Shown here piece after piece: positions 8,470 to 31,345 of a stretch of DNA of 64,000 bases (its first letter is position 1; each line of letters begins with the position of its first letter). Where the stretch lies: assembly GCF_022539665.2 (NCBI RefSeq), contig NC_081337.1:1170239-1234238 (forward strand), in the 5' to 3' direction. The notes below the pieces were generated by a model. The model worked only from the letters and a program-made list of their open reading frames with translations, did no database searches and was not told the origin of the DNA. Both the position numbers and the translations under genes were made by a program. Source of the DNA: Daphnia carinata. Its lineage: Eukaryota > Arthropoda > Branchiopoda > Diplostraca > Daphniidae.

Positions 8470-9951
8470 TTTGTTTTGTTTTGTTTTGTTTTGTTTTGTT
8501 TTGTTTTGTTTTGTTTTGTTTTGTTTTGTTTTGTTTTGTTTTGTTTTGTTTTGTTTTGTTTTGTTTTGTTTTGTTTTGTTTTGTTTTGTTTTGTTTTGTT
8601 TTGTTTTGTTTTGTTTTGTTTTGTTTTGTTTTGTTTTGTTTTGTTTTGTTTTGTTTTGTTTTGTTTTGTTTTGTTTTGTTTTGTTTTGTTTTGTTTTGTT
8701 TTGTTTTGTTTTGTTTTGTTTTGTTTTGTTTTGTTTTGTTTTGTTTTGTTTTGTTTTGTTTTGTTTTGTTTTGTTTTGTTTTGTTTTGTTTTGTTTTGTT
8801 TTGTTTTGTTTTGTTTTGTTTTGTTTTGTTTTGTTTTGTTTTGTTTTGTTTTGTTTTGTTTTGTTTTGTTTTGTTTTGTTTTGTTTTGTTTTGTTTTGTT
8901 TTGTTTTGTTTTGTTTTGTTTTGTTTTGTTTTGTTTTGTTTTGTTTTGTTTTGTTTTGTTTTGTTTTGTTTTGTTTTGTTTTGTTTTGTTTTGTTTTGTT
9001 TTGTTTTGTTTTGTTTTGTTTTGTTTTGTTTTGTTTTGTTTTGTTTTGTTTTGTTTTGTTTTGTTTTGTTTTGTTTTGTTTTGTTTTGTTTTGTTTTGTT
9101 TTGTTTTGTTTTGTTTTGTTTTGTTTTGTTTTGTTTTGTTTTGTTTTGTTTTGTTTTGTTTTGTTTTGTTTTGTTTTGTTTTGTTTTGTTTTGTTTTGTT
9201 TTGTTTTGTTTTGTTTTGTTTTGTTTTGTTTTGTTTTGTTTTGTTTTGTTTTGTTTTGTTTTGTTTTGTTTTGTTTTGTTTTGTTTTGTTTTGTTTTGTT
9301 TTGTTTTGTTTTGTTTTGTTTTGTTTTGTTTTGTTTTGTTTTGTTTTGTTTTGTTTTGTTTTGTTTTGTTTTGTTTTGTTTTGTTTTGTTTTGTTTTGTT
9401 TTGTTTTGTTTTGTTTTGTTTTGTTTTGTTTTGTTTTGTTTTGTTTTGTTTTGTTTTGTTTTGTTTTGTTTTGTTTTGTTTTGTTTTGTTTTGTTTTGTT
9501 TTGTTTTGTTTTGTTTTGTTTTGTTTTGTTTTGTTTTGTTTTGTTTTGTTTTGTTTTGTTTTGTTTTGTTTTGTTTTGTTTTGTTTTGTTTTGTTTTGTT
9601 TTGTTTTGTTTTGTTTTGTTTTGTTTTGTTTTGTTTTGTTTTGTTTTGTTTTGTTTTGTTTTGTTTTGTTTTGTTTTGTTTTGTTTTGTTTTGTTTTGTT
9701 TTGTTTTGTTTTGTTTTGTTTTGTTTTGTTTTGTTTTGTTTTGTTTTGTTTTGTTTTGTTTTGTTTTGTTTTGTTTTGTTTTGTTTTGTTTTGTTTTGTT
9801 TTGTTTTGTTTTGTTTTGTTTTGTTTTGTTTTGTTTTGTTTTGTTTTGTTTTGTTTTGTTTTGTTTTGTTTTGTTTTGTTTTGTTTTGTTTTGTTTTGTT
9901 TTGTTTTGTTTTGTTTTGTTTTGTTTTGTTTTGTTTTGTTTTGTTTTGTTT
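8470..9951. repeat. (TTTTG)n microsatellite, 1,482 bp
   Basis: About 296 uninterrupted copies of TTTTG (CAAAA on the minus strand); I see no interruption. It separates the broken tRNA-Leu of array 1 from a point 25 nt downstream of a lost tRNA-Asp in array 2. The long frames read through it (VLFCF or KTKQN periodic peptides) are artefacts of a period not divisible by three. True length may differ from the assembled length. Confidence 0.98.
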
Positions 9952-10754
9952 AATTGCCAACGATTTTGTTTCAGACACCTTTAAAATTAAGAGAGGGAAA
10001 CCAAGCACGCTTTTCTCCTACATGCAGTTTTAATGGTCGTGCTCTCGTGGAAACAACTATACACGATTGAGCATTGGTTTCTTAAATTTCGACAATTACA
10101 CACGTTCTTCTCGCCCACGAAACATAAGATTTTCACTCGTCGAATCTTGTATGACGCGCCACCTGCTGTTTGCTTCTTGAATCCTGCGGTGCAGATGATT
10201 GATATAGAGCCTAGCCTACGCCATCTGCTATTTGACCTATGAACCGGCTGATAGCGATATCGCTTTCAACGCCAATGATTATCGTTTGATCTCTAAGGTC
10301 GCCTTCGGCATCATAGTGTTCTGATACCTATTCTTTCTCTTGCGATAGAACGCTATGTGACCATGTCTGAGAACAAACGGAAAATATATTAAAAGCGCTT
10401 CGAAAGCACACACTACAAGTATATAAAAAAGAGCTAAAACACGACAACATTACCAAAGGGGACTATATACGTATTAAATATCAAATACCAGAAAATCACG
10501 TAATACGTTAGATAAAACCAAAACTAGAATTCGGAAATAAGAACGACATATTCACGTTCGTTTGTTGTGTTTAATCTGTAGGGTCAGTAGGGTGTTTCCT
10601 TGCCATTTCAGTCTACACGTGGATCACTGCCTATTTTGATTCGCTCCTGAATGTAGACCAACTACAGTGGTCAATGACTAGCAGTTGGTACTCGACAAGT
10701 GTTCGCTTTATGCTGCTTGGAGATAATGCGAGGGATTGGTGATAACTCATCACG

Positions 10755-10826
10755 TCCTCGGTAGTATAGTGGTCAGTATCCCCGCCTGTCACGCGGGAGA
10801 CCGGGGTTCAATTCCCCGCCGGGGAG
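10755..10826 (+). tRNA. tRNA-Asp-GTC: tRNA-Asp(GTC), copy 1
   Basis: A 72-nt gene: acceptor TCCTCGG/CCGGGGA with a T-G pair at position 4, anticodon stem CCCGC/GCGGG around loop CTGTCAC (anticodon GTC), T-arm CGGGGTTCAATTCCCCG, discriminator G. The B box is GGTTCAATTCC. The first TTTT downstream is about 36 nt away. Confidence 0.97.
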
Positions 10827-11693
10827 AGGATGGGTTGCGGTGCTCAATTGCCAACGATTTTGTTTCAGACACCTTTAAAATTAAGAGAGGGAAACCAAGC
10901 ACGCTTTTCTCCTACATGCAGTTTTAATGGTCGTGCTCTCGTGGAAACAACTATACACGATTGAGCATTGGTTTCTTAAATTTCGACAATTACACACGTT
11001 CTTCTCGCCCACGAAACATAAGATTTTCACTCGTCGAATCTTGTATGACGCGCCACCTGCTGTTTGCTTCTTGAATCCTGCGGTGCAGATGATTGATATA
11101 GAGCCTAGCCTACGCCATCTGCTATTTGTTTCGCTTACTATATAGGACATTTGACTTAAAAATTCCTTTGCCGACCTATGAACCGGCTGATAGCGATATC
11201 GCTTTCAACGCCAATGATTATCGTTTGATCTCTAAGGTCGCCTTCGGCATCATAGTGTTCTGATACCTATTCTTTCTCTTGCGATAGAACGCTATGTGAC
11301 CATGTCTGAGAACAAACGGAAAATATATTAAAAGCGCTTCGAAAGCACACACTACAAGTATATAAAAAAGAGCTAAAACACGACAACATTACCAAAGGGG
11401 ACTATATACGTATTAAATATCAAATACCAGAAAATCACGTAATACGTTAGATAAAACCAAAACTAGAATTCGGAAATAAGAACGACATATTCACGTTCGT
11501 TTGTTGTGTTTAATCTGTAGGGTCAGTAGGGTGTTTCCTTGCCATTTCAGTCTACACGTGGATCACTGCCTATTTTGATTCGCTCCTGAATGTAGACCAA
11601 CTACAGTGGTCAATGACTAGCAGTTGGTACTCGACAAGTGTTCGCTTTATGCTGCTTGGAGATAATGCGAGGGATTGGTGATAACTCATCACG

Positions 11694-11765
11694 TCCTCGG
11701 TAGTATAGTGGTCAGTATCCCCGCCTGTCACGCGGGAGACCGGGGTTCAATTCCCCGCCGGGGAG
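11694..11765 (+). tRNA. tRNA-Asp-GTC: tRNA-Asp(GTC), copy 2
   Basis: Consensus body. Confidence 0.97.
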
Positions 11766-12632
11766 AGGATGGGTTGCGGTGCTCAATTGCCAACGATTTT
11801 GTTTCAGACACCTTTAAAATTAAGAGAGGGAAACCAAGCACGCTTTTCTCCTACATGCAGTTTTAATGGTCGTGCTCTCGTGGAAACAACTATACACGAT
11901 TGAGCATTGGTTTCTTAAATTTCGACAATTACACACGTTCTTCTCGCCCACGAAACATAAGATTTTCACTCGTCGAATCTTGTATGACGCGCCACCTGCT
12001 GTTTGCTTCTTGAATCCTGCGGTGCAGATGATTGATATAGAGCCTAGCCTACGCCATCTGCTATTTGTTTCGCTTACTATATAGGACATTTGACTTAAAA
12101 ATTCCTTTGCCGACCTATGAACCGGCTGATAGCGATATCGCTTTCAACGCCAATGATTATCGTTTGATCTCTAAGGTCGCCTTCGGCATCATAGTGTTCT
12201 GATACCTATTCTTTCTCTTGCGATAGAACGCTATGTGACCATGTCTGAGAACAAACGGAAAATATATTAAAAGCGCTTCGAAAGCACACACTACAAGTAT
12301 ATAAAAAAGAGCTAAAACACGACAACATTACCAAAGGGGACTATATACGTATTAAATATCAAATACCAGAAAATCACGTAATACGTTAGATAAAACCAAA
12401 ACTAGAATTCGGAAATAAGAACGACATATTCACGTTCGTTTGTTGTGTTTAATCTGTAGGGTCAGTAGGGTGTTTCCTTGCCATTTCAGTCTACACGTGG
12501 ATCACTGCCTATTTTGATTCGCTCCTGAATGTAGACCAACTACAGTGGTCAATGACTAGCAGTTGGTACTCGACAAGTGTTCGCTTTATGCTGCTTGGAG
12601 ATAATGCGAGGGATTGGTGATAACTCATCACG

Positions 12633-12704
12633 TCCTCGGTAGTATAGTGGTCAGTATCCCCGCCTGTCACGCGGGAGACCGGGGTTCAATTCCCCGCCGG
12701 GGAG
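12633..12704 (+). tRNA. tRNA-Asp-GTC: tRNA-Asp(GTC), copy 3
   Basis: Consensus body. Confidence 0.97.
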
Positions 12705-13572
12705 AGGATGGGTTGCGGTGCTCAATTGCCAACGATTTTGTTTCAGACACCTTTAAAATTAAGAGAGGGAAACCAAGCACGCTTTTCTCCTACATGCAGT
12801 TTTAATGGTCGTGCTCTCGTGGAAACAACTATACACGATTGAGCATTGGTTTCTTAAATTTCGACAATTACACACGTTCTTCTCGCCCACGAAACATAAG
12901 ATTTTCACTCGTCGAATCTTGTATGACGCGCCACCTGCTGTTTGCTTCTTGAATCCTGCGGTGCAGATGATTGATATAGAGCCTAGCCTACGCCATCTGC
13001 TATTTGTTTCGCTTACTATATAGGACATTTGACTTAAAAATTCCTTTGCCGACCTATGAACCGGCTGATAGCGATATCGCTTTCAACGCCAATGATTATC
13101 GTTTGATCTCTAAGGTCGCCTTCGGCATCATAGTGTTCTGATACCTATTCTTTCTCTTGCGATAGAACGCTATGTGACCATGTCTGAGAACAAACGGAAA
13201 ATATATTAAAAGCGCTTCGAAAGCACACACTACAAGTATATAAAAAAGAGCTAAAACACGACAACATTACCAAAGGGGACTATATACGTATTAAATATCA
13301 AATACCAGAAAATCACGTAATACGTTAGATAAAACCAAAAACTAGAATTCGGAAATAAGAACGACATATTCACGTTCGTTTGTTGTGTTTAATCTGTAGG
13401 GTCAGTAGGGTGTTTCCTTGCCATTTCAGTCTACACGTGGATCACTGCCTATTTTGATTCGCTCCTGAATGTAGACCAACTACAGTGGTCAATGACTAGC
13501 AGTTGGTACTCGACAAGTGTTCGCTTTATGCTGCTTGGAGATAATGCGAGGGATTGGTGATAACTCATCACG

Positions 13573-13644
13573 TCCTCGGTAGTATAGTGGTCAGTATCCC
13601 CGCCTGTCACGCGGGAGACCGGGGTTCAATTCCCCGCCGGGGAG
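13573..13644 (+). tRNA. tRNA-Asp-GTC: tRNA-Asp(GTC), copy 4
   Basis: Consensus body; the preceding spacer has one extra A. Confidence 0.97.
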
Positions 13645-14511
13645 AGGATGGGTTGCGGTGCTCAATTGCCAACGATTTTGTTTCAGACACCTTTAAAATT
13701 AAGAGAGGGAAACCAAGCACGCTTTTCTCCTACATGCAGTTTTAATGGTCGTGCTCTCGTGGAAACAACTATACACGATTGAGCATTGGTTTCTTAAATT
13801 TCGACAATTACACACGTTCTTCTCGCCCACGAAACATAAGATTTTCACTCGTCGAATCTTGTATGACGCGCCACCTGCTGTTTGCTTCTTGAATCCTGCG
13901 GTGCAGATGATTGATATAGAGCCTAGCCTACGCCATCTGCTATTTGTTTCGCTTACTATATAGGACATTTGACTTAAAAATTCCTTTGCCGACCTATGAA
14001 CCGGCTGATAGCGATATCGCTTTCAACGCCAATGATTATCGTTTGATCTCTAAGGTCGCCTTCGGCATCATAGTGTTCTGATACCTATTCTTTCTCTTGC
14101 GATAGAACGCTATGTGACCATGTCTGAGAACAAACGGAAAATATATTAAAAGCGCTTCGAAAGCACACACTACAAGTATATAAAAAAGAGCTAAAACACG
14201 ACAACATTACCAAAGGGGACTATATACGTATTAAATATCAAATACCAGAAAATCACGTAATACGTTAGATAAAACCAAAACTAGAATTCGGAAATAAGAA
14301 CGACATATTCACGTTCGTTTGTTGTGTTTAATCTGTAGGGTCAGTAGGGTGTTTCCTTGCCATTTCAGTCTACACGTGGATCACTGCCTATTTTGATTCG
14401 CTCCTGAATGTAGACCAACTACAGTGGTCAATGACTAGCAGTTGGTACTCGACAAGTGTTCGCTTTATGCTGCTTGGAGATAATGCGAGGGATTGGTGAT
14501 AACTCATCACG

Positions 14512-14583
14512 TCCTCGGTAGTATAGTGGTCAGTATCCCCGCCTGTCACGCGGGAGACCGGGGTTCAATTCCCCGTCGGGGAG
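14512..14583 (+). tRNA. tRNA-Asp-GTC: tRNA-Asp(GTC), copy 5
   Basis: C65 is T (ccccgTcgggg), turning the last acceptor pair into G-U, which is tolerated. Confidence 0.96.
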
Positions 14584-15450
14584 AGGATGGGTTGCGGTGC
14601 TCAATTGCCAACGATTTTGTTTCAGACACCTTTAAAATTAAGAGAGGGAAACCAAGCACGCTTTTCTCCTACATGCAGTTTTAATGGTCGTGCTCTCGTG
14701 GAAACAACTATACACGATTGAGCATTGGTTTCTTAAATTTCGACAATTACACACGTTCTTCTCGCCCACGAAACATAAGATTTTCACTCGTCGAATCTTG
14801 TATGACGCGCCACCTGCTGTTTGCTTCTTGAATCCTGCGGTGCAGATGATTGATATAGAGCCTAGCCTACGCCATCTGCTATTTGTTTCGCTTACTATAT
14901 AGGACATTTGACTTAAAAATTCCTTTGCCGACCTATGAACCGGCTGATAGCGATATCGCTTTCAACGCCAATGATTATCGTTTGATCTCTAAGGTCGCCT
15001 TCGGCATCATAGTGTTCTGATACCTATTCTTTCTCTTGCGATAGAACGCTATGTGACCATGTCTGAGAACAAACGGAAAATATATTAAAAGCGCTTCGAA
15101 AGCACACACTACAAGTATATAAAAAAGAGCTAAAACACGACAACATTACCAAAGGGGACTATATACGTATTAAATATCAAATACCAGAAAATCACGTAAT
15201 ACGTTAGATAAAACCAAAACTAGAATTCGGAAATAAGAACGACATATTCACGTTCGTTTGTTGTGTTTAATCTGTAGGGTCAGTAGGGTGTTTCCTTGCC
15301 ATTTCAGTCTACACGTGGATCACTGCCTATTTTGATTCGCTCCTGAATGTAGACCAACTACAGTGGTCAATGACTAGCAGTTGGTACTCGACAAGTGTTC
15401 GCTTTATGCTGCTTGGAGATAATGCGAGGGATTGGTGATAACTCATCACG

Positions 15451-15522
15451 TCCTCGGTAGTATAGTGGTCAGTATCCCCGCCTGTCACGCGGGAGACCGG
15501 GGTTCAATTCCCCGCCGGGGAG
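15451..15522 (+). tRNA. tRNA-Asp-GTC: tRNA-Asp(GTC), copy 6
   Basis: Consensus body. Confidence 0.97.
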
Positions 15523-16389
15523 AGGATGGGTTGCGGTGCTCAATTGCCAACGATTTTGTTTCAGACACCTTTAAAATTAAGAGAGGGAAACCAAGCACGC
15601 TTTTCTCCTACATGCAGTTTTAATGGTCGTGCTCTCGTGGAAACAACTATACACGATTGAGCATTGGTTTCTTAAATTTCGACAATTACACACGTTCTTC
15701 TCGCCCACGAAACATAAGATTTTCACTCGTCGAATCTTGTATGACGCGCCACCTGCTGTTTGCTTCTTGAATCCTGCGGTGCAGATGATTGATATAGAGC
15801 CTAGCCTACGCCATCTGCTATTTGTTTCGCTTACTATATAGGACATTTGACTTAAAAATTCCTTTGCCGACCTATGAACCGGCTGATAGCGATATCGCTT
15901 TCAACGCCAATGATTATCGTTTGATCTCTAAGGTCGCCTTCGGCATCATAGTGTTCTGATACCTATTCTTTCTCTTGCGATAGAACGCTATGTGACCATG
16001 TCTGAGAACAAACGGAAAATATATTAAAAGCGCTTCGAAAGCACACACTACAAGTATATAAAAAAGAGCTAAAACACGACAACATTACCAAAGGGGACTA
16101 TATACGTATTAAATATCAAATACCAGAAAATCACGTAATACGTTAGATAAAACCAAAACTAGAATTCGGAAATAAGAACGACATATTCACGTTCGTTTGT
16201 TGTGTTTAATCTGTAGGGTCAGTAGGGTGTTTCCTTGCCATTTCAGTCTACACGTGGATCACTGCCTATTTTGATTCGCTCCTGAATGTAGACCAACTAC
16301 AGTGGTCAATGACTAGCAGTTGGTACTCGACAAGTGTTCGCTTTATGCTGCTTGGAGATAATGCGAGGGATTGGTGATAACTCATCACG

Positions 16390-16461
16390 TCCTCGGTAGT
16401 ATAGTGGTCAGTATCCCCGCCTGTCACGCGGGAGACCGGGGTTCAATTCCCCGCCGGGGAG
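16390..16461 (+). tRNA. tRNA-Asp-GTC: tRNA-Asp(GTC), copy 7
   Basis: Consensus body; the spacer downstream has a 2-bp insertion (ctgtgtttgc) near 16699. Confidence 0.97.
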
Positions 16462-17330
16462 AGGATGGGTTGCGGTGCTCAATTGCCAACGATTTTGTTT
16501 CAGACACCTTTAAAATTAAGAGAGGGAAACCAAGCACGCTTTTCTCCTACATGCAGTTTTAATGGTCGTGCTCTCGTGGAAACAACTATACACGATTGAG
16601 CATTGGTTTCTTAAATTTCGACAATTACACACGTTCTTCTCGCCCACGAAACATAAGATTTTCACTCGTCGAATCTTGTATGACGCGCCACCTGCTGTGT
16701 TTGCTTCTTGAATCCTGCGGTGCAGATGATTGATATAGAGCCTAGCCTACGCCATCTGCTATTTGTTTCGCTTACTATATAGGACATTTGACTTAAAAAT
16801 TCCTTTGCCGACCTATGAACCGGCTGATAGCGATATCGCTTTCAACGCCAATGATTATCGTTTGATCTCTAAGGTCGCCTTCGGCATCATAGTGTTCTGA
16901 TACCTATTCTTTCTCTTGCGATAGAACGCTATGTGACCATGTCTGAGAACAAACGGAAAATATATTAAAAGCGCTTCGAAAGCACACACTACAAGTATAT
17001 AAAAAAGAGCTAAAACACGACAACATTACCAAAGGGGACTATATACGTATTAAATATCAAATACCAGAAAATCACGTAATACGTTAGATAAAACCAAAAC
17101 TAGAATTCGGAAATAAGAACGACATATTCACGTTCGTTTGTTGTGTTTAATCTGTAGGGTCAGTAGGGTGTTTCCTTGCCATTTCAGTCTACACGTGGAT
17201 CACTGCCTATTTTGATTCGCTCCTGAATGTAGACCAACTACAGTGGTCAATGACTAGCAGTTGGTACTCGACAAGTGTTCGCTTTATGCTGCTTGGAGAT
17301 AATGCGAGGGATTGGTGATAACTCATCACG

Positions 17331-17402
17331 TCCTCGGTAGTATAGTGGTCAGTATCCCCGCCTGTCACGCGGGAGACCGGGGTTCAATTCCCCGCCGAGG
17401 AG
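17331..17402 (+). tRNA. tRNA-Asp-GTC: tRNA-Asp(GTC), copy 8
   Basis: G68 is A (ccgAgga), which converts the T-G wobble at acceptor position 4 to a T-A pair. Confidence 0.96.
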
Positions 17403-18269
17403 AGGATGGGTTGCGGTGCTCAATTGCCAACGATTTTGTTTCAGACACCTTTAAAATTAAGAGAGGGAAACCAAGCACGCTTTTCTCCTACATGCAGTTT
17501 TAATGGTCGTGCTCTCGTGGAAACAACTATACACGATTGAGCATTGGTTTCTTAAATTTCGACAATTACACACGTTCTTCTCGCCCACGAAACATAAGAT
17601 TTTCACTCGTCGAATCTTGTATGACGCGCCACCTGCTGTTTGCTTCTTGAATCCTGCGGTGCAGATGATTGATATAGAGCCTAGCCGACGCCATCTGCTA
17701 TTTGTTTCGCTTACTATATAGGACATTTGACTTAAAAATTCCTTTGCCGACCTATGAACCGGCTGATAGCGATATCGCTTTCAACGCCAATGATTATCGT
17801 TTGATCTCTAAGGTCGCCTTCGGCATCATAGTGTTCTGATACCTATTCTTTCTCTTGCGATAGAACGCTATGTGACCATGTCTGAGAACAAACGGAAAAT
17901 ATATTAAAAGCGCTTCGAAAGCACACACTACAAGTATATAAAAAAGAGCTAAAACACGACAACATTACCAAAGGGGACTATATACGTATTAAATATCAAA
18001 TACCAGAAAATCACGTAATACGTTAGATAAAACCAAAACTAGAATTCGGAAATAAGAACGACATATTCACGTTCGTTTGTTGTGTTTAATCTGTAGGGTC
18101 AGTAGGGTGTTTCCTTGCCATTTCAGTCTACACGTGGATCACTGCCTATTTTGATTCGCTCCTGAATGTAGACCAACTACAGTGGTCAATGACTAGCAGT
18201 TGGTACTCGACAAGTGTTCGCTTTATGCTGCTTGGAGATAATGCGAGGGATTGGTGATAACTCATCACG

Positions 18270-18341
18270 TCCTCGGTAGTATAGTGGTCAGTATCCCCGC
18301 CTGTCACGCGGGAGACCGGGGTTCAATTCCCCGCCGGGGAG
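18270..18341 (+). tRNA. tRNA-Asp-GTC: tRNA-Asp(GTC), copy 9
   Basis: Consensus body. Confidence 0.97.
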
Positions 18342-19209
18342 AGGATGGGTTGCGGTGCTCAATTGCCAACGATTTTGTTTCAGACACCTTTAAAATTAAG
18401 AGAGGGAAACCAAGCACGCTTTTCTCCTACATGCAGTTTTAATGGTCGTGCTCTCGTGGAAACAACTATACACGATTGAGCATTGGTTTCTTAAATTTCG
18501 ACAATTACACACGTTCTTCTCGCCCACGAAACATAAGATTTTCACTCGTCGAATCTTGTATGACGCGCCACCTGCTGTTTGCTTCTTGAATCCTGCGGTG
18601 CAGATGATTGATATAGAGCCTAGCCTACGCCATCTGCTATTTGTTTCGCTTACTATATAGGACATTTGACTTAAAAATTCCTTTGCCGACCTATGAACCG
18701 GCTGATAGCGATATCGCTTTCAACGCCAATGATTATCGTTTGATCTCTAAGGTCGCCTTCGGCATCATAGTGTTCTGATACCTATTCTTTCTCTTGCGAT
18801 AGAACGCTATGTGACCATGTCTGAGAACAAACGGAAAATTATATTAAAAGCGCTTCGAAAGCACACACTACAAGTATATAAAAAAGAGCTAAAACACGAC
18901 AACATTACCAAAGGGGACTATATACGTATTAAATATCAAATACCAGAAAATCACGTAATACGTTAGATAAAACCAAAACTAGAATTCGGAAATAAGAACG
19001 ACATATTCACGTTCGTTTGTTGTGTTTAATCTGTAGGGTCAGTAGGGTGTTTCCTTGCCATTTCAGTCTACACGTGGATCACTGCCTATTTTGATTCGCT
19101 CCTGAATGTAGACCAACTACAGTGGTCAATGACTAGCAGTTGGTACTCGACAAGTGTTCGCTTTATGCTGCTTGGAGATAATGCGAGGGATTGGTGATAA
19201 CTCATCACG

Positions 19210-19281
19210 TCCTCGGTAGTATAGTGGTCAGTATCCCCGCCTGTCACGCGGGAGACCGGGGTTCAATTCCCCGCCGGGGAG
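19210..19281 (+). tRNA. tRNA-Asp-GTC: tRNA-Asp(GTC), copy 10
   Basis: Consensus body. Confidence 0.97.
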
Positions 19282-20148
19282 AGGATGGGTTGCGGTGCTC
19301 AATTGCCAACGATTTTGTTTCAGACACCTTTAAAATTAAGAGAGGGAAACCAAGCACGCTTTTCTCCTACATGCAGTTTTAATGGTCGTGCTCTCGTGGA
19401 AACAACTATACACGATTGAGCATTGGTTTCTTAAATTTCGACAATTACACACGTTCTTCTCGCCCACGAAACATAAGATTTTCACTCGTCGAATCTTGTA
19501 TGACGCGCCACCTGCTGTTTGCTTCTTGAATCCTGCGGTGCAGATGATTGATATAGAGCCTAGCCTACGCCATCTGCTATTTGTTTCGCTTACTATATAG
19601 GACATTTGACTTAAAAATTCCTTTGCCGACCTATGAACCGGCTGATAGCGATATCGCTTTCAACGCCAATGATTATCGTTTGATCTCTAAGGTCGCCTTC
19701 GGCATCATAGTGTTCTGATACCTATTCTTTCTCTTGCGATAGAACGCTATGTGACCATGTCTGAGAACAAACGGAAAATATATTAAAAGCGCTTCGAAAG
19801 CACACACTACAAGTATATAAAAAAGAGCTAAAACACGACAACATTACCAAAGGGGACTATATACGTATTAAATATCAAATACCAGAAAATCACGTAATAC
19901 GTTAGATAAAACCAAAACTAGAATTCGGAAATAAGAACGACATATTCACGTTCGTTTGTTGTGTTTAATCTGTAGGGTCAGTAGGGTGTTTCCTTGCCAT
20001 TTCAGTCTACACGTGGATCACTGCCTATTTTGATTCGCTCCTGAATGTAGACCAACTACAGTGGTCAATGACTAGCAGTTGGTACTCGACAAGTGTTCGC
20101 TTTATGCTGCTTGGAGATAATGCGAGGGATTGGTGATAACTCATCACG

Positions 20149-20219
20149 TCCTCGGTAGTATAGTGGTCAGTATCCCCGCCTGTCACGCGGAGACCGGGGT
20201 TCAATTCCCCGCCGGGGAG
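20149..20219 (+). pseudogene. tRNA-Asp(GTC), copy 11 with 1-nt deletion
   Basis: One G is missing from the 3' side of the anticodon stem (cacgcggagacc for cacgcgggagacc). This shortens the stem or variable loop. Probably nonfunctional, though a shifted pairing cannot be excluded. Confidence 0.75.
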
Positions 20220-21086
20220 AGGATGGGTTGCGGTGCTCAATTGCCAACGATTTTGTTTCAGACACCTTTAAAATTAAGAGAGGGAAACCAAGCACGCTTT
20301 TCTCCTACATGCAGTTTTAATGGTCGTGCTCTCGTGGAAACAACTATACACGATTGAGCATTGGTTTCTTAAATTTCGACAATTACACACGTTCTTCTCG
20401 CCCACGAAACATAAGATTTTCACTCGTCGAATCTTGTATGACGCGCCACCTGCTGTTTGCTTCTTGAATCCTGCGGTGCAGATGATTGATATAGAGCCTA
20501 GCCTACGCCATCTGCTATTTGTTTCGCTTACTATATAGGACATTTGACTTAAAAATTCCTTTGCCGACCTATGAACCGGCTGATAGCGATATCGCTTTCA
20601 ACGCCAATGATTATCGTTTGATCTCTAAGGTCGCCTTCGGCATCATAGTGTTCTGATACCTATTCTTTCTCTTGCGATAGAACGCTATGTGACCATGTCT
20701 GAGAACAAACGGAAAATATATTAAAAGCGCTTCGAAAGCACACACTACAAGTATATAAAAAAGAGCTAAAACACGACAACATTACCAAAGGGGACTATAT
20801 ACGTATTAAATATCAAATACCAGAAAATCACGTAATACGTTAGATAAAACCAAAACTAGAATTCGGAAATAAGAACGACATATTCACGTTCGTTTGTTGT
20901 GTTTAATCTGTAGGGTCAGTAGGGTGTTTCCTTGCCATTTCAGTCTACACGTGGATCACTGCCTATTTTGATTCGCTCCTGAATGTAGACCAACTACAGT
21001 GGTCAATGACTAGCAGTTGGTACTCGACAAGTGTTCGCTTTATGCTGCTTGGAGATAATGCGAGGGATTGGTGATAACTCATCACG

Positions 21087-21158
21087 TCCTCGGTAGTATA
21101 GTGGTCAGTATCCCCGCCTGTCACGCGGGAGACCGGGGTTCAATTCCCCGCCGGGGAG
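21087..21158 (+). tRNA. tRNA-Asp-GTC: tRNA-Asp(GTC), copy 12
   Basis: Consensus body; the last gene before LTR element A. Confidence 0.97.
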
Positions 21159-21827: not shown

Positions 21828-22181
21828 TCATAACCGTTTATTATACCCCAGTACAAGTGCACACAGTGACAGAGCAAAGGCAACTCCGTTAATGATTAAG
21901 AAACACGGGTTTATATACCAGTAAGGGGCTACAGCAGCGCACGTCATGGTGATAATTAGCATCACGCTTAGACGGCGGGAGCGTGACAAGGTCATGGCGC
22001 GATGGCTGTATACCACGCGCCATACCCAACTCCGTGTCATGGAGGCGCTGCGCTAAACATACTCAGAGCGGCTCCTATTCGATAGGTGGTGACGTAGTGT
22101 GTACACTACGCGTAACACCTACGTCAAGGATAGCATAGGCTACCGTCAAGTATACATGAAAGTGTATATTGACTCATTACA
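21828..22181 (-). repeat. Element A 3' LTR
   Basis: 354 bp matching 30991-31345. In coding orientation it begins TGTAATGAGTC directly after the polypurine tract and ends GGTTATGA. It has a canonical TG start but no clear CA end. Confidence 0.93.
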
Positions 22182-22427: not shown

Positions 22428-23738
22428 TTAATCTTCTTCCGATGGTGAACCGGCTCCTCTCCTCCTCTTGCAGCTCCTTTCTCGGTCGTAGTGAATTATC
22501 AGCGTTTTCTGGCCTTTTCTTCTCGGTTTTATATTTCTGTTAAGGAATACTTTAGCTATTTCTTCTCTCTCGCCGATGTAATCCGTGGCATAATTTCCAA
22601 GATAGTCTGGTTCGTCATATCTTGCGCCGTTCCTTAACAGCACTTCAACTATCTCGGGGTTCCCATATCGTACGGCTGCAATAAGGGCCGTTTCACGGCG
22701 CGTCAGAGATTTTTGGTTGACGTTTACACCGTGCATGCATGCACTGTTGACATATTCTTTCTTGCTGTTGAATCTCGCTGCATAGTGTAAGATCGTTTCT
22801 CCATCGCGACTTAACTGTTTTATCAGTGGAGTTATCCACAGAAAACCGATGCTTTCTTCGTTTTTTAATGCGATGGCCACCATTAGGGGAGTTTCCCCTA
22901 GACAGTTCCATTCGCTAAACTGACACCTGTGGAATGACAGCGTTCCGAGTATGTGTTCGTTGTTGTCTGCGGCGGCTCGGTGAGCTATTGTTTCAGACTT
23001 TTCTGTGATGTCGATGTTTGCGCCGAAAGTCAATAATAGTTCCGTGACGTCGTATCTTTTCTTATTTACACTTTCGTGGAGCATGGTTCTTCCATTTGGG
23101 AATTTCGTATCCAACAGGCTTCCCACGCTCCTTCCTGTTGCACTTCCCTCCTCTTCTTTTCCTTTCAGAAATTTTCTAAGCGTTTCTCGAGGGGCGTTGA
23201 TTATTTCGAAGACGAACTGTCCTCGTTCGGCTGCTATGGTGGCTAGCCTCTCGATGCGTTGATTGGCTGCATCGCCGGCCACTAAAGGAGGGAAGGTCTT
23301 TAGCATGCAGTTACGGCAACTGCGAGTGATGTGCTCTTTTTGGGCGTGGTTTAGTCCTCCTTCTTCGTTGCTTGCGGGTGTGTCGTAGTAATCACCTCTG
23401 TGTCCCATCTTACTCCGATCGTCGTCACTGTGAAACACACTTTCTTCGTCGTCATATTCGTACGGCCCAGCGTTTGAAGTACTTTCAAAGCTTCCGGTCG
23501 TATGATACACGTCGTCGTTGTCGCTGCTACTGTCTTCCATTGACGTGGTGTAGTGTCCATCATCGTATTCGCTACTAATGGATTCTTCACCTTCACTTGT
23601 GTTTTCTTGGGGCAGTTCACCTTTACTGTGATTGCAATTTGACTGTTTCTCGTCCCGATTGCGGTGCATGTCTGGCAGTTCTACTGTCGTTGCGTCGCTG
23701 TCCGCGATATCTCCGTCCTTCTTGATCTGCTCAATCAT
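22428..23738 (-). CDS. Ankyrin-repeat protein carried by LTR element A
   Basis: A 436-residue frame in the same orientation as gag-pol-env, between env and the 3' LTR. Residues ~44-130 are acidic and rich in Ser, Asp and Tyr and look disordered. Residues ~215-405 hold about six ankyrin repeats, shown by spaced GRTMLHESV, GETPLMVA, GETILHYAA and RETALIAAVRYGNPEIVEVLL motifs. The C-terminus is basic (RRKGQK, CKRRRG), a possible nuclear signal. The frame continues upstream across one TAG codon to an ATG at 23963, so the product may be a ~510-residue protein or start at the internal ATG. Ankyrin repeats bind other proteins. An acidic N-terminus followed by ankyrin repeats is the plan of IkB/Cactus-type inhibitors, but I see no diagnostic degron and do not assign that role. 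Such a gene is not a standard part of Gypsy elements, and capture from a host is inferred. Confidence 0.85.
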   Translation of the reverse strand: MIEQIKKDGDIADSDATTVELPDMHRNRDEKQSNCNHSKGELPQENTSEGEESISSEYDDGHYTTSMEDSSSDNDDVYHTTGSFESTSNAGPYEYDDEESVFHSDDDRSKMGHRGDYYDTPASNEEGGLNHAQKEHITRSCRNCMLKTFPPLVAGDAANQRIERLATIAAERGQFVFEIINAPRETLRKFLKGKEEEGSATGRSVGSLLDTKFPNGRTMLHESVNKKRYDVTELLLTFGANIDITEKSETIAHRAAADNNEHILGTLSFHRCQFSEWNCLGETPLMVAIALKNEESIGFLWITPLIKQLSRDGETILHYAARFNSKKEYVNSACMHGVNVNQKSLTRRETALIAAVRYGNPEIVEVLLRNGARYDEPDYLGNYATDYIGEREEIAKVFLNRNIKPRRKGQKTLIIHYDRERSCKRRRGAGSPSEED

Positions 23739-23747
23739 TTTTCTTAG

Positions 23748-23963
23748 CTAATTTGGGTCATCGTCACCACTTTCCTCTATTTCGTGTTTCGCGATTTCTA
23801 CTTCGGTGCACAATTCAGGCCCTATGTCAGACGTCGGACCTTTCTCGATTTTTATGGCTTGTTGAGTTTCATCGGTTCCTATCCAGTCGTTTACTAGATC
23901 TTCAACCCAGCACTGGCGTTCCTGTTTGATTGGATCCCGTTCGTTGTTGATTGTAGACGACAT
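23748..23963 (-). CDS. In-frame N-terminal extension of the ankyrin ORF, ended by TAG
   Basis: 71 codons from ATG 23963, acidic and without a recognised domain. It ends at a TAG followed by CTA; the downstream ankyrin frame is the same frame and begins four codons later. This is either a single nonsense mutation in a longer ORF, a readthrough site, or a short upstream ORF. The ATG directly follows AAACCAAG, a weak splice-acceptor-like sequence. Confidence 0.6.
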   Translation of the reverse strand: MSSTINNERDPIKQERQCWVEDLVNDWIGTDETQQAIKIEKGPTSDIGPELCTEVEIAKHEIEESGDDDPN

Positions 23964-25024: not shown

Positions 25025-25045
25025 CTGTTACATAAAAAAAATAGT
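25025..25045 (-). promoter_or_regulatory. Candidate 3' splice site before the env-like ATG
   Basis: The minus strand reads TTTTTTTTATGTAACAG directly before the ATG at 25024, a pyrimidine tract plus AG. It fits a spliced subgenomic env mRNA as in retroviruses. The donor was not identified. Confidence 0.55.
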
Positions 25046-25093: not shown

Positions 25094-25462
25094 TTAATTA
25101 GTTCTTTTCCTAAGATTATAGCGGGCATTTCCCGAATTGGTTGGGGTGTTTGGTTCGGCATAGGACATTCTTTGGTTTTTGATCAGGGGTACAGGATTCG
25201 TGGAGTTTTTTTCTGTTTTCAAATTTAATGAGCCAATCTCTGTTGTTACATTTTTACGTGGTCTTCCAGGGCCTCTTTTGATTTTACTTTCGATTTTCAC
25301 GTTTGGATTTAGTATTTCTGTGGTGTTTGGTACACTTTCTCGAGGGATATAGAGTTTCAGGCGATTAGAGTTAACTGTTGCTTTTTGTTTTTTGTTTTCA
25401 ATGTTTCGACCTCGTAAGTTATGTCTGAGAAGTTTCGTGTGATTCGGAACGGTCCGTTCCAT
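25094..25462 (-). CDS. Element A pol C-terminal tail with AT-hook
   Basis: A 122-residue frame continuing the integrase C-terminus after a frame change (shared ENKKQK region at an A-rich tract). It carries the usual Gypsy integrase end NSNRLKLYIP, then a classic AT-hook core GPGRPRK at residues ~64-70, and ends YNLRKR. AT-hooks bind the minor groove of AT-rich DNA, so a role in integration-site choice is possible but inferred. Confidence 0.6.
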   Translation of the reverse strand: MERTVPNHTKLLRHNLRGRNIENKKQKATVNSNRLKLYIPRESVPNTTEILNPNVKIESKIKRGPGRPRKNVTTEIGSLNLKTEKNSTNPVPLIKNQRMSYAEPNTPTNSGNARYNLRKRTN

Positions 25463-25635
25463 CTGTTAATGAATTTACCTGCTGATGGTGGAGCTTTTAG
25501 CATTACTAAGTCACCAATTTTATACGCAATTCCTTTTGCTCTTTCATCGTAGTACTTTCTGTTTAGTTTGTGCTTTGAAGAGGTGACTTCTTGCCAGGTC
25601 TTGAGCGTTTCTCCATTTTTGATAGTATAATCCAC
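25357..25635 (-). pseudogene. Element A integrase C-terminal domain (GPF module), frameshifted
   Basis: A 92-codon frame overlapping both the integrase core frame upstream and the tail frame downstream. It holds the SH3-like C-terminal domain with the motif WNGPFRI at residues ~59-65, typical of Gypsy integrases. It needs a frame change on both sides to join pol. Confidence 0.75.
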
Positions 25636-26389
25636 TACTGCCTTCGTCGTGCTCGAGGTTCCGATTTATTTTTATGTCGTTAGGTAGAATTGGTTCTCTT
25701 CCGAAAAAAAGGTAAAATGGGGTGTCCTTTAGCGTAGCTTGTTGTGATGTGTTGTACGCCAAGGTGACAAATGGTAGGTATTTGTCCCACTCTTCTGGTT
25801 CATCTACTACGTAGCAAGCTAGAATATCACACAGAGTTCTGTTGAATCTTTCTACTAGTCTGTCGGTTTGCGGATGGTAGGCGGTAGTTCTTATCTGCTT
25901 GATTTTAAAAAGTTTACACATTTCTTGAACAAGACTCGAAAGGAAATTCGTTCCTTGGTCGGTTAGCACAATCTCGGGTGCTCCATATTTCGTTATCACT
26001 TTATTTACCATAATGGATGCGATTGTTTGGGCGGTCTGGTTTTTCATTGGAAATGCAAAAACGGAATGACTGGAATAATCAGACAGAACTAGAACATATT
26101 TATATCCCTTAACACTTTCTTGAATTGGTCCTACTATATCCATTGCAATGCGTTGCCATACTCTGTCAACTGGTGGCAGAGGTTGCAATGGTGCTATCGT
26201 TGCGCCGAAGGCTTTACGCCTTGCACATCTTAAGCAACTGTTAACGTATGTCGTAACATCTGTTCTCATGTTTGGCCAAAAATATTGTCTTTGTAGTCTC
26301 GCTAAAGTCTTCGCTATTCCTAAATGTCCTGCTAACATGTGATCATGATTTTCTTTCATTATTTCTCTTATTGTATTTCCTGGTACCAC
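25544..26389 (-). CDS. Element A integrase core
   Basis: 281 residues with an HHCC zinc-binding N-terminus (His15-22 region, Cys52 and Cys55) and the DDE catalytic triad: Asp84 in MDIVGP, Asp144 in LTDQGTNF, Glu180 in VERFNRTL. The open frame starts upstream of the first listed codon and overlaps the end of RT-RNase H in another frame. The frame change lies near an A9 run at about 26474-26482. This could be programmed frameshifting, decay, or a homopolymer sequencing error. Confidence 0.88.
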   Translation of the reverse strand: MVPGNTIREIMKENHDHMLAGHLGIAKTLARLQRQYFWPNMRTDVTTYVNSCLRCARRKAFGATIAPLQPLPPVDRVWQRIAMDIVGPIQESVKGYKYVLVLSDYSSHSVFAFPMKNQTAQTIASIMVNKVITKYGAPEIVLTDQGTNFLSSLVQEMCKLFKIKQIRTTAYHPQTDRLVERFNRTLCDILACYVVDEPEEWDKYLPFVTLAYNTSQQATLKDTPFYLFFGREPILPNDIKINRNLEHDEGSSGLYYQKWRNAQDLARSHLFKAQTKQKVLR

Positions 26390-26432: not shown

Positions 26433-28310
26433 TTATATCCATTTATATTCTCTTCCTTTCTGGTTCCCTGTTTCTTTTTTTTTCATTAAATTACCTATAA
26501 TTCTTCTGCAATTTATATCGTTATGCTGTAGTCGAACCCATTCGCTTTCTTCCTCTTTAATTTCGCTTTTAATCGCTCTTGCGTCTACACTAGCTATAGT
26601 TGCTACTGGGGTACGACTAAGGGTATCCGCATTTTGGTGCGATTTACCTGGTCGATATCCAATTACGATATCATATTCTTGGATTTTGAGTGCCCATCTA
26701 GCTAGTCGTCCTGCTGGTTCCGCTTTACTCATTAACCATTCTAACGGTCGGTGGTCGGTGTATACTGTAAATTTACGTCCGTATAGGTAGGTTCGAAATA
26801 CGTTGATTGCATGAACGATCGCATAAGCTTCCTTCTCTGTGGTGGACCACTTGGCTTCGCGGTCATTCAGATGTTTGGAGCTGTATGCAATGACGACTTC
26901 TGTGTCGTCTGATTCACTGAGAACTGGTTCGTTAGTCTCACCTGAATCCGCTGATTGAGGTAGAGATTGTATTTGTGCCAAGACTGCACCTATCCCGTAC
27001 CCAGAGGCATCCGTATAGATGATAAAGTCGCGCGAAAAATCCGGATAACTCAGGATAGGTCTAGTGATGAGACAGTTCTTTATACAATTAAAGGCGTCCC
27101 CTTCTGACTCTCCCCATTTCCATTCTGCTGACTTTTTCGTAAGTGCAGTTAATGGATGAGCTTTATCAGCAAAAGCTCTGATAAATTTCCTGTAGTAACT
27201 AGCCAAACCTAAGAATGAACTCAATTCTTTTGTATTTTTGGGAGCGGGGTAATCTATAATTGCTTTTAATTTTTTCAAATTTGGTGTTATCCCTTTTCTA
27301 GAAACGATGTATCCGAGATAGTCCAATTCTTCTTTAAAAAATTCACACTTCTTTCTTTTTAGCTTAAGTCCCGCAATTTCCAGAAGCTCGAAAACTTTAT
27401 CTAGGTGCGATAGATGTTCCTTAATCGATTTACTAAATATAATTATATCGTCTAAGTATACTAGGGCGAATTTGTACAGCACGTCTTTCAGAATGTTATT
27501 CATTGCTCTTTGGAACGTACTTGGTGCGTTTGTTAACCCAAATGGCATTCTGTTAAATTCGTACTGTCCAAATTCGCAAATGAAAGCTGTTTTATATTTA
27601 TCCTTTTCTTCAATCTCGATTTGCCAGTATCCGCTCAAAAGATCCAATGATGAAAAATACATAGACCCGCACAATGCATCCACAGTATCGTCAATTCTTG
27701 GTAAAGGGTATTTATCTTTAATTGTTATTTTATTTAGCGGCCTATAGTCGATGCACATACGCATCTCTCCATCCTTTTTGGGTACCATTACGATGGCTGC
27801 GGCAAACGGGCTGTGGCTCTCCCTTATTATCTTATTTTTTAGCATTACTTCAATTTTAGATTTTACGGTTTCTTTCAGTGCTTCGGGTGTTCTACGGAGT
27901 CGTTGATTAATCGGGATGTCATGTCCGGTATTTATAAAATGTTTTACTCGTGATACGAGACCAAGGTCTGATTCCTTGTCCGCAAATAATTGCTCATGTT
28001 TGTTAAGTAAGTTTTTTACTTTTGTTAAGACTTCAGTTTCAAATTCTGGGATATTGAATTGTGGTGGTTGGCTATCTAGCGCTTTCGTCTTGTCCTGTTT
28101 CGAGATATCACACTGGCTAAAAGGTCCTAAGTTACGGCGATCTTTTGTTGTTAGTTTTCCCTCTTGATTGTTAGTAAGTACTGGTATTATTGGTATGTTA
28201 ATTCCCGCATTCTCGAAGGTTAGGTTATATAACGGTATATTCTGCCTATAGCTATGTTCTACGCCTAAATGGTCATAGCATATTTCTCTATTTCTAGTAT
28301 TAATTTTCAC
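26433..28310 (-). CDS. Element A reverse transcriptase-RNase H
   Basis: 625 residues. RT palm motifs are intact: SPFAAAIVMVPKKDG near 167-181, SLDLLSGYW at 221-229 (first catalytic Asp 223), FGLTNAPSTFQR at 257-268 and YLDD at 285-288. RNase H follows with YTDAS at 432-436, a Glu near 493 and YTDH at 517-520. The order RT then RNase H then integrase assigns it to Ty3/Gypsy. It is separated from the protease frame by about 100 bp and one frame. Confidence 0.93.
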   Translation of the reverse strand: MKINTRNREICYDHLGVEHSYRQNIPLYNLTFENAGINIPIIPVLTNNQEGKLTTKDRRNLGPFSQCDISKQDKTKALDSQPPQFNIPEFETEVLTKVKNLLNKHEQLFADKESDLGLVSRVKHFINTGHDIPINQRLRRTPEALKETVKSKIEVMLKNKIIRESHSPFAAAIVMVPKKDGEMRMCIDYRPLNKITIKDKYPLPRIDDTVDALCGSMYFSSLDLLSGYWQIEIEEKDKYKTAFICEFGQYEFNRMPFGLTNAPSTFQRAMNNILKDVLYKFALVYLDDIIIFSKSIKEHLSHLDKVFELLEIAGLKLKRKKCEFFKEELDYLGYIVSRKGITPNLKKLKAIIDYPAPKNTKELSSFLGLASYYRKFIRAFADKAHPLTALTKKSAEWKWGESEGDAFNCIKNCLITRPILSYPDFSRDFIIYTDASGYGIGAVLAQIQSLPQSADSGETNEPVLSESDDTEVVIAYSSKHLNDREAKWSTTEKEAYAIVHAINVFRTYLYGRKFTVYTDHRPLEWLMSKAEPAGRLARWALKIQEYDIVIGYRPGKSHQNADTLSRTPVATIASVDARAIKSEIKEEESEWVRLQHNDINCRRIIGNLMKKKETGNQKGREYKWI

Positions 28311-28411: not shown

Positions 28412-28801
28412 TTAAATGCAATCTTCGTTCAGCTTTTCTATGGCATAGAAGTAATGATTGATTAAATGATTATTATTTATGGTAATTGTTAGTTCATATT
28501 GCCCTATTGATTTTAGTGTCTGACCGGATACGGTCCTAAACGTGGGTGTATTTTTATTTTTTATTTGTTTTAGTTCTTTTTCATTTATGCTGAGTAAGGT
28601 ATCCGCGGAAACTAGACTGGCTGCTGCTCCAGTGTCTATCAAAGCTCTAAGTACTATTCCATAAATTCTAATGGGTATGCGTATTAGTTGGGGTATGTTA
28701 GAATCTAATTTATCCGATTTTATGCTACTGCGGGTTAGTGCCTTATCTATTCTATTTGTTGGTGATTCGCATAATTCATAAGTGCCATATTGGTCCAACA
28801 T
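28412..28801 (-). CDS. Element A retropepsin-like protease
   Basis: A 129-residue frame overlapping the end of gag by 55 bp in a different frame, an arrangement compatible with gag-pro frameshifting. The active-site motif ALIDTGAAASLVS holds the catalytic Asp-Thr-Gly. Length fits a retroviral-type aspartic protease that works as a dimer. Confidence 0.85.
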   Translation of the reverse strand: MLDQYGTYELCESPTNRIDKALTRSSIKSDKLDSNIPQLIRIPIRIYGIVLRALIDTGAAASLVSADTLLSINEKELKQIKNKNTPTFRTVSGQTLKSIGQYELTITINNNHLINHYFYAIEKLNEDCI

Positions 28802-30606
28802 TCTCTTGCTATGTGTCCCTTTTTGTTACACTTATGACAAATTATATCTCTGTTTACTGGGGTACGGACTCCTGTACTGCGATATTGGCGATTGCTATCG
28901 TTTTGCTGCGGGTACCTGATATCTGCGTGGTTGTTAGTCCTGAAAGGTTGTTGGTATCTTCCCGGTTGATGTGTATAGGGGTGGTTTCGTTGGTGTCGGA
29001 AGCCTGTTGTATATGTTGGCTCACGATCCCTTATTGGTGCGTTATGCCTCCAACGTTGTGTAGGTTCGTTTCTCCTAAACGGGCTCGCTTCTCTGCTTTT
29101 TGAAAAACTCGGTTCTCTACTGCGTGAATAACTTGACGCTCTGCTGCGGTCTAAGGTATCTCGGAAACGGACTCTGCCTGGGTACTGTTCTCTGGAGTAA
29201 CCTGGTCTACCTTGGCGTATGTTCGACTGCCGTCCGCTGTTGCCGTAACGGTCGGTGGCTGCAATCTGTACACTGTTTTCCTGTGATGATTCACGATCTT
29301 TATTAAAACATTCCAACTCTAATAATCTCTGGCTAAGTTGTTCTAGTTCAGTTTTTTGTTTAGACAATTCGTGATCTTGTTCTTTCTCACGGTCTGTAAT
29401 TCCAGCAATTACCGCCGTTATTTCTCTATCTTCATTATTTTCCTTTTCGTGCAATATATGTTCTGATATGAACAGTTGTTTGCAAAGCGAATCGAAGTCG
29501 TCGGATTTTTCTGGCATTCTGAGGTATAGCTCCGCTTTTACTTTGGGTAAGATCCCTTGAAGTAATATTTTTATCTTTGTCGTATCTCTCATCTTCTTTA
29601 CTTTATTAAATAGTTGATCCTCTATTATTGTTTTGTCGTGGTCGAGTTTTTCTTCCTTTCCCTCTATGGTGTCGTATAGGCTGTTTAATCTTGACACGAA
29701 AGCTCTGCAATTTTCTTCAGGTTTCTGCTTTAGCTTCATTAGTTTTTTCTTCAGCGCACGATTCTCCAGGCGGGATATTTTATTTTCTTGTTCTGCTGTC
29801 TGCTTTTTTATTTGCTGAAGTGCTCGATCAAGGTCTTTATTTTTAAGAACAGTTTCTGCTTGCGTCTTAGTTAGCGTGACTTTTTCTGCTTTTGACTTGT
29901 CTAGCTGAGTTTTTATTTCGTTTGTAGCTGCTTCTAATTCTTTTATCCTTTCAACGTTTACTGCTATCTGTTTTCTGGTACTGTTTAGTTTTTCTTGTAG
30001 TTGGATATTTTCTGCTTCGAGTTTATTAATTGTCTCTTGACCCTCTCTTTCAACGTTTTCGGTAATTTCTTCTCTCTTTTTCAGCCGGTCTTCGAAATAT
30101 TTTTCAGCTTCTTGTGATTTTTGTAAGTCACTCTCCAATTCTGCAATTCGGGTATTTGCTTTTTCAAGTGAATTTTTCAAGGACTCGTTGTTTTCTTGCA
30201 GGTGCTCTAGGGAACTGCTGAGCGTGTACTTTGAACTCTTTGCCTTTTTCTTGTTGCTCTCGATCTGTTTTCGTAGATTGGTATTTTCTGCGGTAATCTG
30301 ATCTTTTGCTTGCTGCTCTTCTACTTGCTGGTGTAGAGTTTCACTTTGAAGGACAGCTAACGTTTTGCTGAGGAATTCTTTTTCTTTGCCGTGGACTGTT
30401 TTTAACTGGTGGATAAGAGTGTCGACGAAATTATTTTCTTCGCCAGATTTCTCTAGTTGACTTTTTAAGGCTTCAGTGGTCTTGCTGATTGACTCGTGTG
30501 AGGTGGTGTCGTCTTTTGTCTCGAGATTTTGCTTTATTAGTGAGTGAGTGTATAGTTGTAGAGCGTTGTTTAGCTCTCTGTGGGAGAGTTTTCTCCTTTC
30601 TTCCAA
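28747..30606 (-). CDS. Element A Gag with long coiled coil and CCHC knuckle
   Basis: 619 codons from the listed start; the open frame extends upstream to 30834. There is no ATG in that extension and the listed start is TTG. The first in-frame ATG lies near codon 290, so the real start is lost, non-AUG, or supplied by splicing. Residues ~60-300 are an almost continuous Glu/Lys/Gln-rich coiled coil, unusually long for Gag. A basic Arg/Ser-rich stretch follows, then a CCHC knuckle (CHKCNKKGHIAREC near 590-603) for RNA binding. Confidence 0.8.
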   Translation of the reverse strand: MEERRKLSHRELNNALQLYTHSLIKQNLETKDDTTSHESISKTTEALKSQLEKSGEENNFVDTLIHQLKTVHGKEKEFLSKTLAVLQSETLHQQVEEQQAKDQITAENTNLRKQIESNKKKAKSSKYTLSSSLEHLQENNESLKNSLEKANTRIAELESDLQKSQEAEKYFEDRLKKREEITENVEREGQETINKLEAENIQLQEKLNSTRKQIAVNVERIKELEAATNEIKTQLDKSKAEKVTLTKTQAETVLKNKDLDRALQQIKKQTAEQENKISRLENRALKKKLMKLKQKPEENCRAFVSRLNSLYDTIEGKEEKLDHDKTIIEDQLFNKVKKMRDTTKIKILLQGILPKVKAELYLRMPEKSDDFDSLCKQLFISEHILHEKENNEDREITAVIAGITDREKEQDHELSKQKTELEQLSQRLLELECFNKDRESSQENSVQIAATDRYGNSGRQSNIRQGRPGYSREQYPGRVRFRDTLDRSRASSYSRSREPSFSKSREASPFRRNEPTQRWRHNAPIRDREPTYTTGFRHQRNHPYTHQPGRYQQPFRTNNHADIRYPQQNDSNRQYRSTGVRTPVNRDIICHKCNKKGHIARECWTNMALMNYANHQQIE

Positions 30607-30990: not shown

Positions 30991-31345
30991 TCATAACCGT
31001 TTATTATACCCCAGTACAAGTGCACACAGTGACAGAGCAAAGGCAACTCCGATTAATGATTAAGAAACACGGGTTTATATACCAGTAAGGGGCTACAGCA
31101 GCGCACGTCATGGTGATAATTAGCATCACGCTTAGACGGCGGGAGCGTGACAAGATCATGGCGCGATGGCTGTATACCACGCGCCATACCCAATTCCGTG
31201 TCATGGAGGCGCTGCGCTAAACATACTCAGAGCGGCTCCTATTCGATAGGTGGTGACGTAGTGTGTACACTACGCGTCGCACCTACGACAAGGATAGCAT
31301 AGGCTACCGTCAAGTATACATGAAAGTGTATATTGACTCATTACA
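30991..31345 (-). repeat. Element A 5' LTR
   Basis: 355 bp, paired with 21828-22181. The 384 bp between it and the listed gag start is leader. No clear tRNA primer-binding site begins at the LTR edge; the nearest tRNA-like string, AGGTCCCAACGAG, lies about 13 nt inside. Confidence 0.92.

Follow-up and report, generated by a model that had tools for sequence, protein, structure and literature searches.

Does the ankyrin-repeat frame that stands between an env-like gene and the 3' long terminal repeat (LTR) of a Daphnia carinata retroelement belong to that element, or is it a piece of host DNA carried by a single copy? The question arises from a stretch of 64,000 nucleotides (contig NC_081337.1, positions 1,170,239 to 1,234,238; hereafter the window), which holds on its minus strand an env-bearing Ty3/Gypsy provirus. 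We consider it probable that a Daphnia clade of env-bearing Ty3/Gypsy elements has in this open reading frame (ORF) a conserved accessory gene, with the order LTR-gag-pol-env-ank-LTR. The ORF keeps its position, is present in multiple copies and multiple families, has a common architecture and evolves under purifying selection; a previous reading of the window, made from the sequence alone, had called it an acquired accessory gene of the element, and this recurrence at the same place in several families under purifying selection supports that view. The same reading had located a 436-codon ankyrin frame between the env-like ORF and the 3' LTR in the same orientation, which was confirmed: the frame begins with an ATG and its stop lies about 250 bp short of the LTR (Table 1).

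The genome (108 Mb, 106 contigs) was searched with procedures that score best candidates only, so that misses are expected. The search with the LTR of the window copy's family (family A) gave 41 matches. Twenty of them, which represent 19 places, are preceded by an ankyrin match whose end lies 240-272 bp from the LTR (at one place a second LTR match follows at 440 bp). Sixteen others are 5' LTRs, with env following after 4.2-6.7 kb, and ankyrin comes next in 13 of these. The expectation that other copies would hold the ORF at the same place was thus borne out. As 3' LTRs were recognised by their upstream content, independent tests are provided by the number of 5'-LTR copies with ankyrin and by the counts made from env. 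Concerning the three 5'-LTR copies that lack an ankyrin match, one was read and has the gag of another retrotransposon at the expected spot; the LTR at C2:7529235, one of the 19 places, also has, 4.8 kb downstream, an env that no ankyrin match accompanies. Five of the 41 matches have neither an ankyrin nor an env partner and, with no match to env in the 15 kb upstream, were treated as the solo LTRs that they look like in a test covering env and ankyrin.

Other families also carry the ankyrin ORF, in multiple copies and as open frames 418-509 codons long. The ankyrin search returned 99 further match rows, some being pieces of one locus, and 116 merged ankyrin loci from several families were defined, 97 of which have an env match upstream. 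Viewed from env, 70 of the 91 loci with its C-terminal part are followed on the same strand by ankyrin at a distance of up to 5 kb (none upstream), and 82 of the 124 loci with its N-terminal part have it within 12 kb downstream (three upstream). Element copies free of the ankyrin gene were considered among the 42 of these 124 loci at which no ankyrin was detected; three were read and none is a clean absence. Specifically, L051 departs from the family after about 120 bp and continues into the integrase of another element, while the expected ankyrin place is taken by an integrase zinc-binding piece in L052 and by a retrotransposon gag piece in L053, neither with similarity to this Gypsy family. 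The pattern of a one-off insertion, with full-length copies lacking the ORF and a match to a unique host exon, was not found among the copies read.

The ratio of nonsynonymous to synonymous divergence (dN/dS, omega) of the ankyrin ORF across copies, which the sequence-only reading had proposed to compute, is well below one. Omega was estimated by the Nei-Gojobori method (NG86), and since dS is high in some pairs the values are approximate. For five family-A copies, summed over 10 pairs, omega is 0.30 for ankyrin, 0.44 for the env N-terminus and 0.13 for integrase. Six pairs between subfamilies were chosen, and their bootstrap upper bounds are all at or below 0.50: A/A' 0.20 (0.15-0.28), B1/B1b 0.16 (0.10-0.24), B1/B3 0.22 (0.15-0.29), B2/C 0.22 (0.16-0.30), B2/B4 0.22 (0.16-0.30) and B3/B4 0.37 (0.27-0.50). 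All 33 of the 91 pairs with dS below 1.2 fall between 0.15 and 0.52, the top values being found among the closest copies. With dN/dS of 0.16-0.37 between subfamilies, the ankyrin protein is selectively maintained.

Fourteen family members join in one ankyrin alignment, and a motif ahead of the repeats, CxNCxxKT, was found in nine of nine sequences scanned. It is visible in several D. magna proteins and not in some metagenome relatives. Its presence in the families examined is more consistent with one old acquisition than with several, and a single acquisition would have preceded the split of families A, B and C. The D. magna relatives of the ankyrin protein are 38-48% identical to it; at E < 1e-20 all named homologues are from Daphnia and the other strong ones are metagenome proteins, while weaker ones are generic ankyrin proteins, including bacterial and snail. 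No donor gene was identified for the ORF, and we infer a host origin. Scanning the ankyrin alignment against viral contigs gave 26 pattern matches, none of which was confirmed. Between families A and B identity is about 36% for ankyrin, 68% for the env N-terminus, 69% for integrase and 88% for a 105-aa stretch of reverse transcriptase (RT), a comparison by which the ankyrin gene diverges more than its neighbours in the element. In the alignment, the L037 protein seems to end in the same ~60 residues as the L038/L039 subfamily, which suggests recombination between elements. Among the metagenome relatives, P0011, P0013, P0017, P0021 and P0024 have no CxNC motif (P0024 lacks the whole region), and P0011, P0013 and P0024 have an extra C-terminal region. 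Seven D. magna gene models (P0004, P0005, P0007-P0009, P0018, P0025) run from env C-terminal sequence into the ankyrin frame as a single protein, which may reflect splicing or chaining by gene prediction.

The protein itself was described by the sequence-only reading as having about six ankyrin repeats, an acidic N-terminus and a basic tail, and each part of this description holds. Pfam recognises Ank_2 (1.5e-26) and Ank (4.8e-19), and the AlphaFold2 model has six helix pairs, the final one short, with a predicted local distance difference test (pLDDT) score mostly above 90 for residues ~160-400 and below 50 for residues 9-153, where disorder is predicted. In the window protein the 140 aa preceding the motif, here CRNCMLKT, have a net charge of -25 with 26% D+E, and the final 45 aa have +6. 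Across nine sequences 105-215 residues precede the motif, the N-terminus is acidic (net -4 to -38) and variable tails stand behind the repeats; the tail is basic in A, A', B2, B4 and C (five of the eight subfamilies compared), near neutral in B3, and B1 and B1b have no basic tail. In five sequences examined for hydropathy, the ankyrin protein showed neither a hydrophobic leader nor a segment resembling a membrane span. The protein is 511 codons long in open relatives of family A; in the window copy an in-frame TAG removes the first 71, so that the ORF is itself damaged. The statement that it is far more open than pol consequently stands as regards pol, which is broken into separate open pieces, and needs correction as regards the ankyrin frame.

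The neighbouring gene was also called env-like; it is env, though in the window only a 279-codon remnant of it, compared with ~1,300 codons in L031 and L032, the most open family-A relatives. The remnant has a hydrophobic leader and a predicted class III fusogen-like domain (gB/rhabdovirus G-like). The env of L031 (1564-5454) and L037 (192-4307), of ~1,300-1,370 codons, has a ricin-type lectin domain, a hydrophobic N-terminus, a 19-residue membrane-span-like hydrophobic segment at 1192 or 1218 and a second hydrophobic segment near residue 1000-1030. An envelope-like build of leader, fusion domain and membrane anchor is therefore recognised in L031 and L037, the fusion domain being predicted from the window remnant. 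No Pfam match to Baculo_F was found in the full env of these two, while a family C env piece gave a sub-threshold one (E = 0.001). In family C (L041) the N-terminal part of env is 24-26% identical to A and B, with a weak match to a rhabdovirus fusion domain (E = 0.0056), while the remainder of env matches B at 79-89% and the ankyrin gene matches B1 and B2 at 57-65%. It appears that env heads can be exchanged between elements while the ankyrin gene stays. A splice-acceptor-like site stands directly before the env ATG in eight of nine relatives compared, all eight being of families A and B; the exception is the one of family C. A conserved splice acceptor at the ankyrin ATG was not supported in the relatives compared, though it is clear at env.

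Concerning function, the ankyrin protein would be made from a subgenomic, probably spliced mRNA, and would act inside the cell, using its repeats as a binding adaptor or a decoy for a host protein. The absence of a leader or membrane span, together with the acidic disordered N-terminus, argues for such an intracellular role and not for an envelope-like or anchored part of the particle. The likeliest class of target is a host regulator of defence or transcription. Fold comparison names no partner because the ankyrin matches tie: the searches of the model gave generic ankyrin matches with no functional pointer (generic ankyrins also in the best 60 of 271 solved structures), no IkB structure is among the matches listed, which by itself decides nothing, and the tied ones include the ankyrin domains of FEM1C and FEM1B and the Notch-CSL complex 2f8x. 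NCBIfam gave ankyrin matches far under curated cut-offs, and PHROGs two unnamed families.

Regulation of transcription or RNA and IkB-like interference would explain the gene about equally well, an adaptor for ligase or trafficking factors less. In the first case an acidic activation region, a basic nuclear signal and repeats docking on a host DNA-binding factor would make the protein a regulator of the element, which is possible but on balance unlikely. Complex retroviruses keep regulatory genes between env and the 3' LTR, where this gene also sits; the acidic N-terminus of nine sequences and the basic tail of A, A', B2, B4 and C fit a regulatory adaptor, and the transcription complex 2f8x is among the fold matches, not ahead of others. 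However, B1 and B1b lack the basic tail, that of B3 is almost neutral, and the fold matches do not discriminate.

The leading named candidate is interception of a Rel/NF-kB factor by an IkB/vankyrin-type immune antagonist whose repeats would bind Rel/NF-kB dimers and block Toll or Imd; by analogy it is plausible, if rather improbable as the specific answer. The Ank proteins of polydnaviruses are reported to bind homodimers of NF-kB and to inhibit the processing of Relish (PMC3359993), and an env-bearing element that infects cells would stand to gain from the like. The matches listed show no preference for IkB folds, however, and the named relatives at E < 1e-20 are all Daphnia proteins, which speaks against it. 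We regard as distinctly unlikely a third possibility, an adaptor for a ubiquitin ligase or a trafficking factor, through which a restriction factor would be removed or the particle targeted (cf. poxvirus ankyrin proteins and FEM1). The FEM1C and FEM1B domains are among the closest fold matches, tied with others, and a further binding site might lie in the conserved CxNCxxKT segment; yet no PRANC, F-box or SOCS-box family was matched in Pfam at E ≤ 0.1 (window protein) or ≤ 1 (three relatives). Finally, chance transduction of a host ankyrin exon by one copy, leaving a neutral ORF, is hardly credible: transduction of host genes by LTR elements is documented (PMC7264820) and ankyrin matches of any sort are common in the genome (at least 172, many being this gene itself), but the gene is present in 13 of 16 5'-LTR copies, at 19 LTR places and in several diverged families under purifying selection, and conservation across families with omega well below one refutes the simple form of this explanation.

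An accessory gene of this kind has its nearest likeness in the additional ORFs (aORFs) of other LTR elements. In bdelloid rotifers such ORFs, termed ORF3s, lie between pol/env and the 3' LTR and encode, for example, a GDSL esterase or a DEDDy exonuclease; the authors report that they do not depart significantly from neutrality and that no clear benefit to the element was seen (PMC5408684). Sense aORFs are also known in plant LTR retrotransposons (PMC7264820). The Daphnia ORF is likewise a sense ORF near the 3' LTR, conserved after env, common to several families and present in most copies; unlike them it encodes an ankyrin protein, is added to a full-size env rather than replacing it, and has an omega well below one. 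With errantiviruses such as Drosophila gypsy the elements share gag, a pol with protease (PR), RT, RNase H and integrase, a downstream env, LTRs and, in families A and B, the acceptor-like site at the env ATG. Errantivirus env is baculovirus F-like, whereas the Daphnia env N-terminus is predicted to be class III gB/rhabdovirus G-like, a ricin-type lectin domain occurs in the env of relatives, and the elements have a fourth gene. Complex retroviruses (foamy viruses, lentiviruses, deltaretroviruses) share an accessory gene between env and the 3' LTR; we know of no accessory protein among them that is an ankyrin protein, and no sequence relationship is claimed. Vankyrins, the polydnavirus Ank proteins, are also virus-associated ankyrin proteins of arthropods, described as IkB-like and free of regulatory sequences (PMC3359993, PMC3757122), while the Daphnia protein has a long acidic N-terminus, the CxNC motif and variable tails. 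The ankyrin-only form of the vankyrin class is not seen here, given the residues that precede the motif and the tails behind the repeats, and by Pfam the C-terminal PRANC or F-box of the poxvirus class is not seen either. In its action the gene would at most resemble a vankyrin or an accessory gene of retroviruses.

Our ORF is thus of a known kind, extra ORFs at this place being already known in rotifer and plant elements, and an ankyrin member was not found in the literature searched. Among the papers listed on ankyrin or extra genes in LTR elements and Daphnia, and on ricin lectins with an envelope in Daphnia, no description of this gene was found. The available text of Rho et al. 2010 (PMC2996953) does not contain the word ankyrin, that of PMC13389597 has ankyrin repeats and transposable elements removed as confounders, and that of PMC10084718, in which neither Daphnia nor lectin occurs, reports no clear case of a Gypsy element that has captured a Jingchuvirales glycoprotein. 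With its lectin domain, the adjoining env suggests that crustaceans have a lineage of modular and virus-like build. Complex vertebrate retroviruses are characterised by their accessory genes, and it is quite possible, though we hold it with reserve, that Daphnia has complex endogenous retroviruses of its own: Gypsy elements with the build of infectious viruses, in which a chimeric env combines a class III fusogen with a ricin-type lectin domain and a dedicated ankyrin protein disarms host defence or drives LTR transcription. Such a lineage would be an invertebrate counterpart of independent origin. Daphnia is a tractable genus, and as selection keeps the gene in several families, what it does to host defence or to the expression of the element is open to direct test.

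The window copy is assigned to Ty3/Gypsy because its LTRs flank gag and pol and the Pfam domains follow the PR-RT-RNaseH-integrase order of that group (Table 1). Its two LTRs are 98.3% identical. It is internally deleted, with an LTR-LTR distance of 9.2 kb; in ten other pairs, matched by eye from the list of LTR matches, the distance is 12.5-13.2 kb in six, shorter in two (8.8 and 9.6 kb) and longer in two (17.6 and 18.9 kb).

Table 1. Coordinates of the provirus features and of the flanking array in the window.
Feature	Position	Strand	Remarks
5' LTR	30991..31345	-	355 bp
gag with CCHC zinc knuckle	28747..30606	-	Pfam
Aspartic protease piece	28412..28801	-	Pfam
Reverse transcriptase and RNase H piece	26433..28310	-	Pfam
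Integrase piece (Integrase_H2C2, rve)	25544..26389	-	Pfam
122-codon ORF, pol C-terminal piece	25094..25462	-	matches the frame downstream of integrase in open relatives
3' splice-site-like T-rich stretch with CAG end	25025..25044	-	abuts the env ATG
env remnant, 279 codons	24185..25024	-	~261 codons align to the N-terminus of the ~1,300-codon env; remainder missing
5' part of the ankyrin frame, as in open relatives (ATG matching 23963)	23739..23963	-	in-frame TAG at 23748-23750
Ankyrin ORF, 436 codons	22428..23738	-	ORF list, Pfam, AlphaFold2
Polypurine tract AAAGGGGGGAGGAA	22182..22195	-	directly before the 3' LTR
3' LTR	21828..22181	-	354 bp
Tandem tRNA-Asp array, ~939-bp units	10755..21158	+	one side of the insertion; resumes at 31514 on the other side

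The provirus split one unit of a tandem tRNA-Asp array. At the insertion site (21828 / 31344) of this one copy no short target-site duplication was seen and ~27 bp of the array unit are absent between the flanks; a later deletion could have removed the duplication. The array spans 10755-40732 in ~939-bp units with tRNA-Asp(GTC), the provirus sitting within one of them. A second tandem array, with ~1,078-bp units each bearing a tRNA Gly(TCC)/Glu(CTC) pair, occupies 4-7892, and a long pentanucleotide repeat at 8263-10033 gives rise to spurious ORFs of more than 500 codons on both strands.
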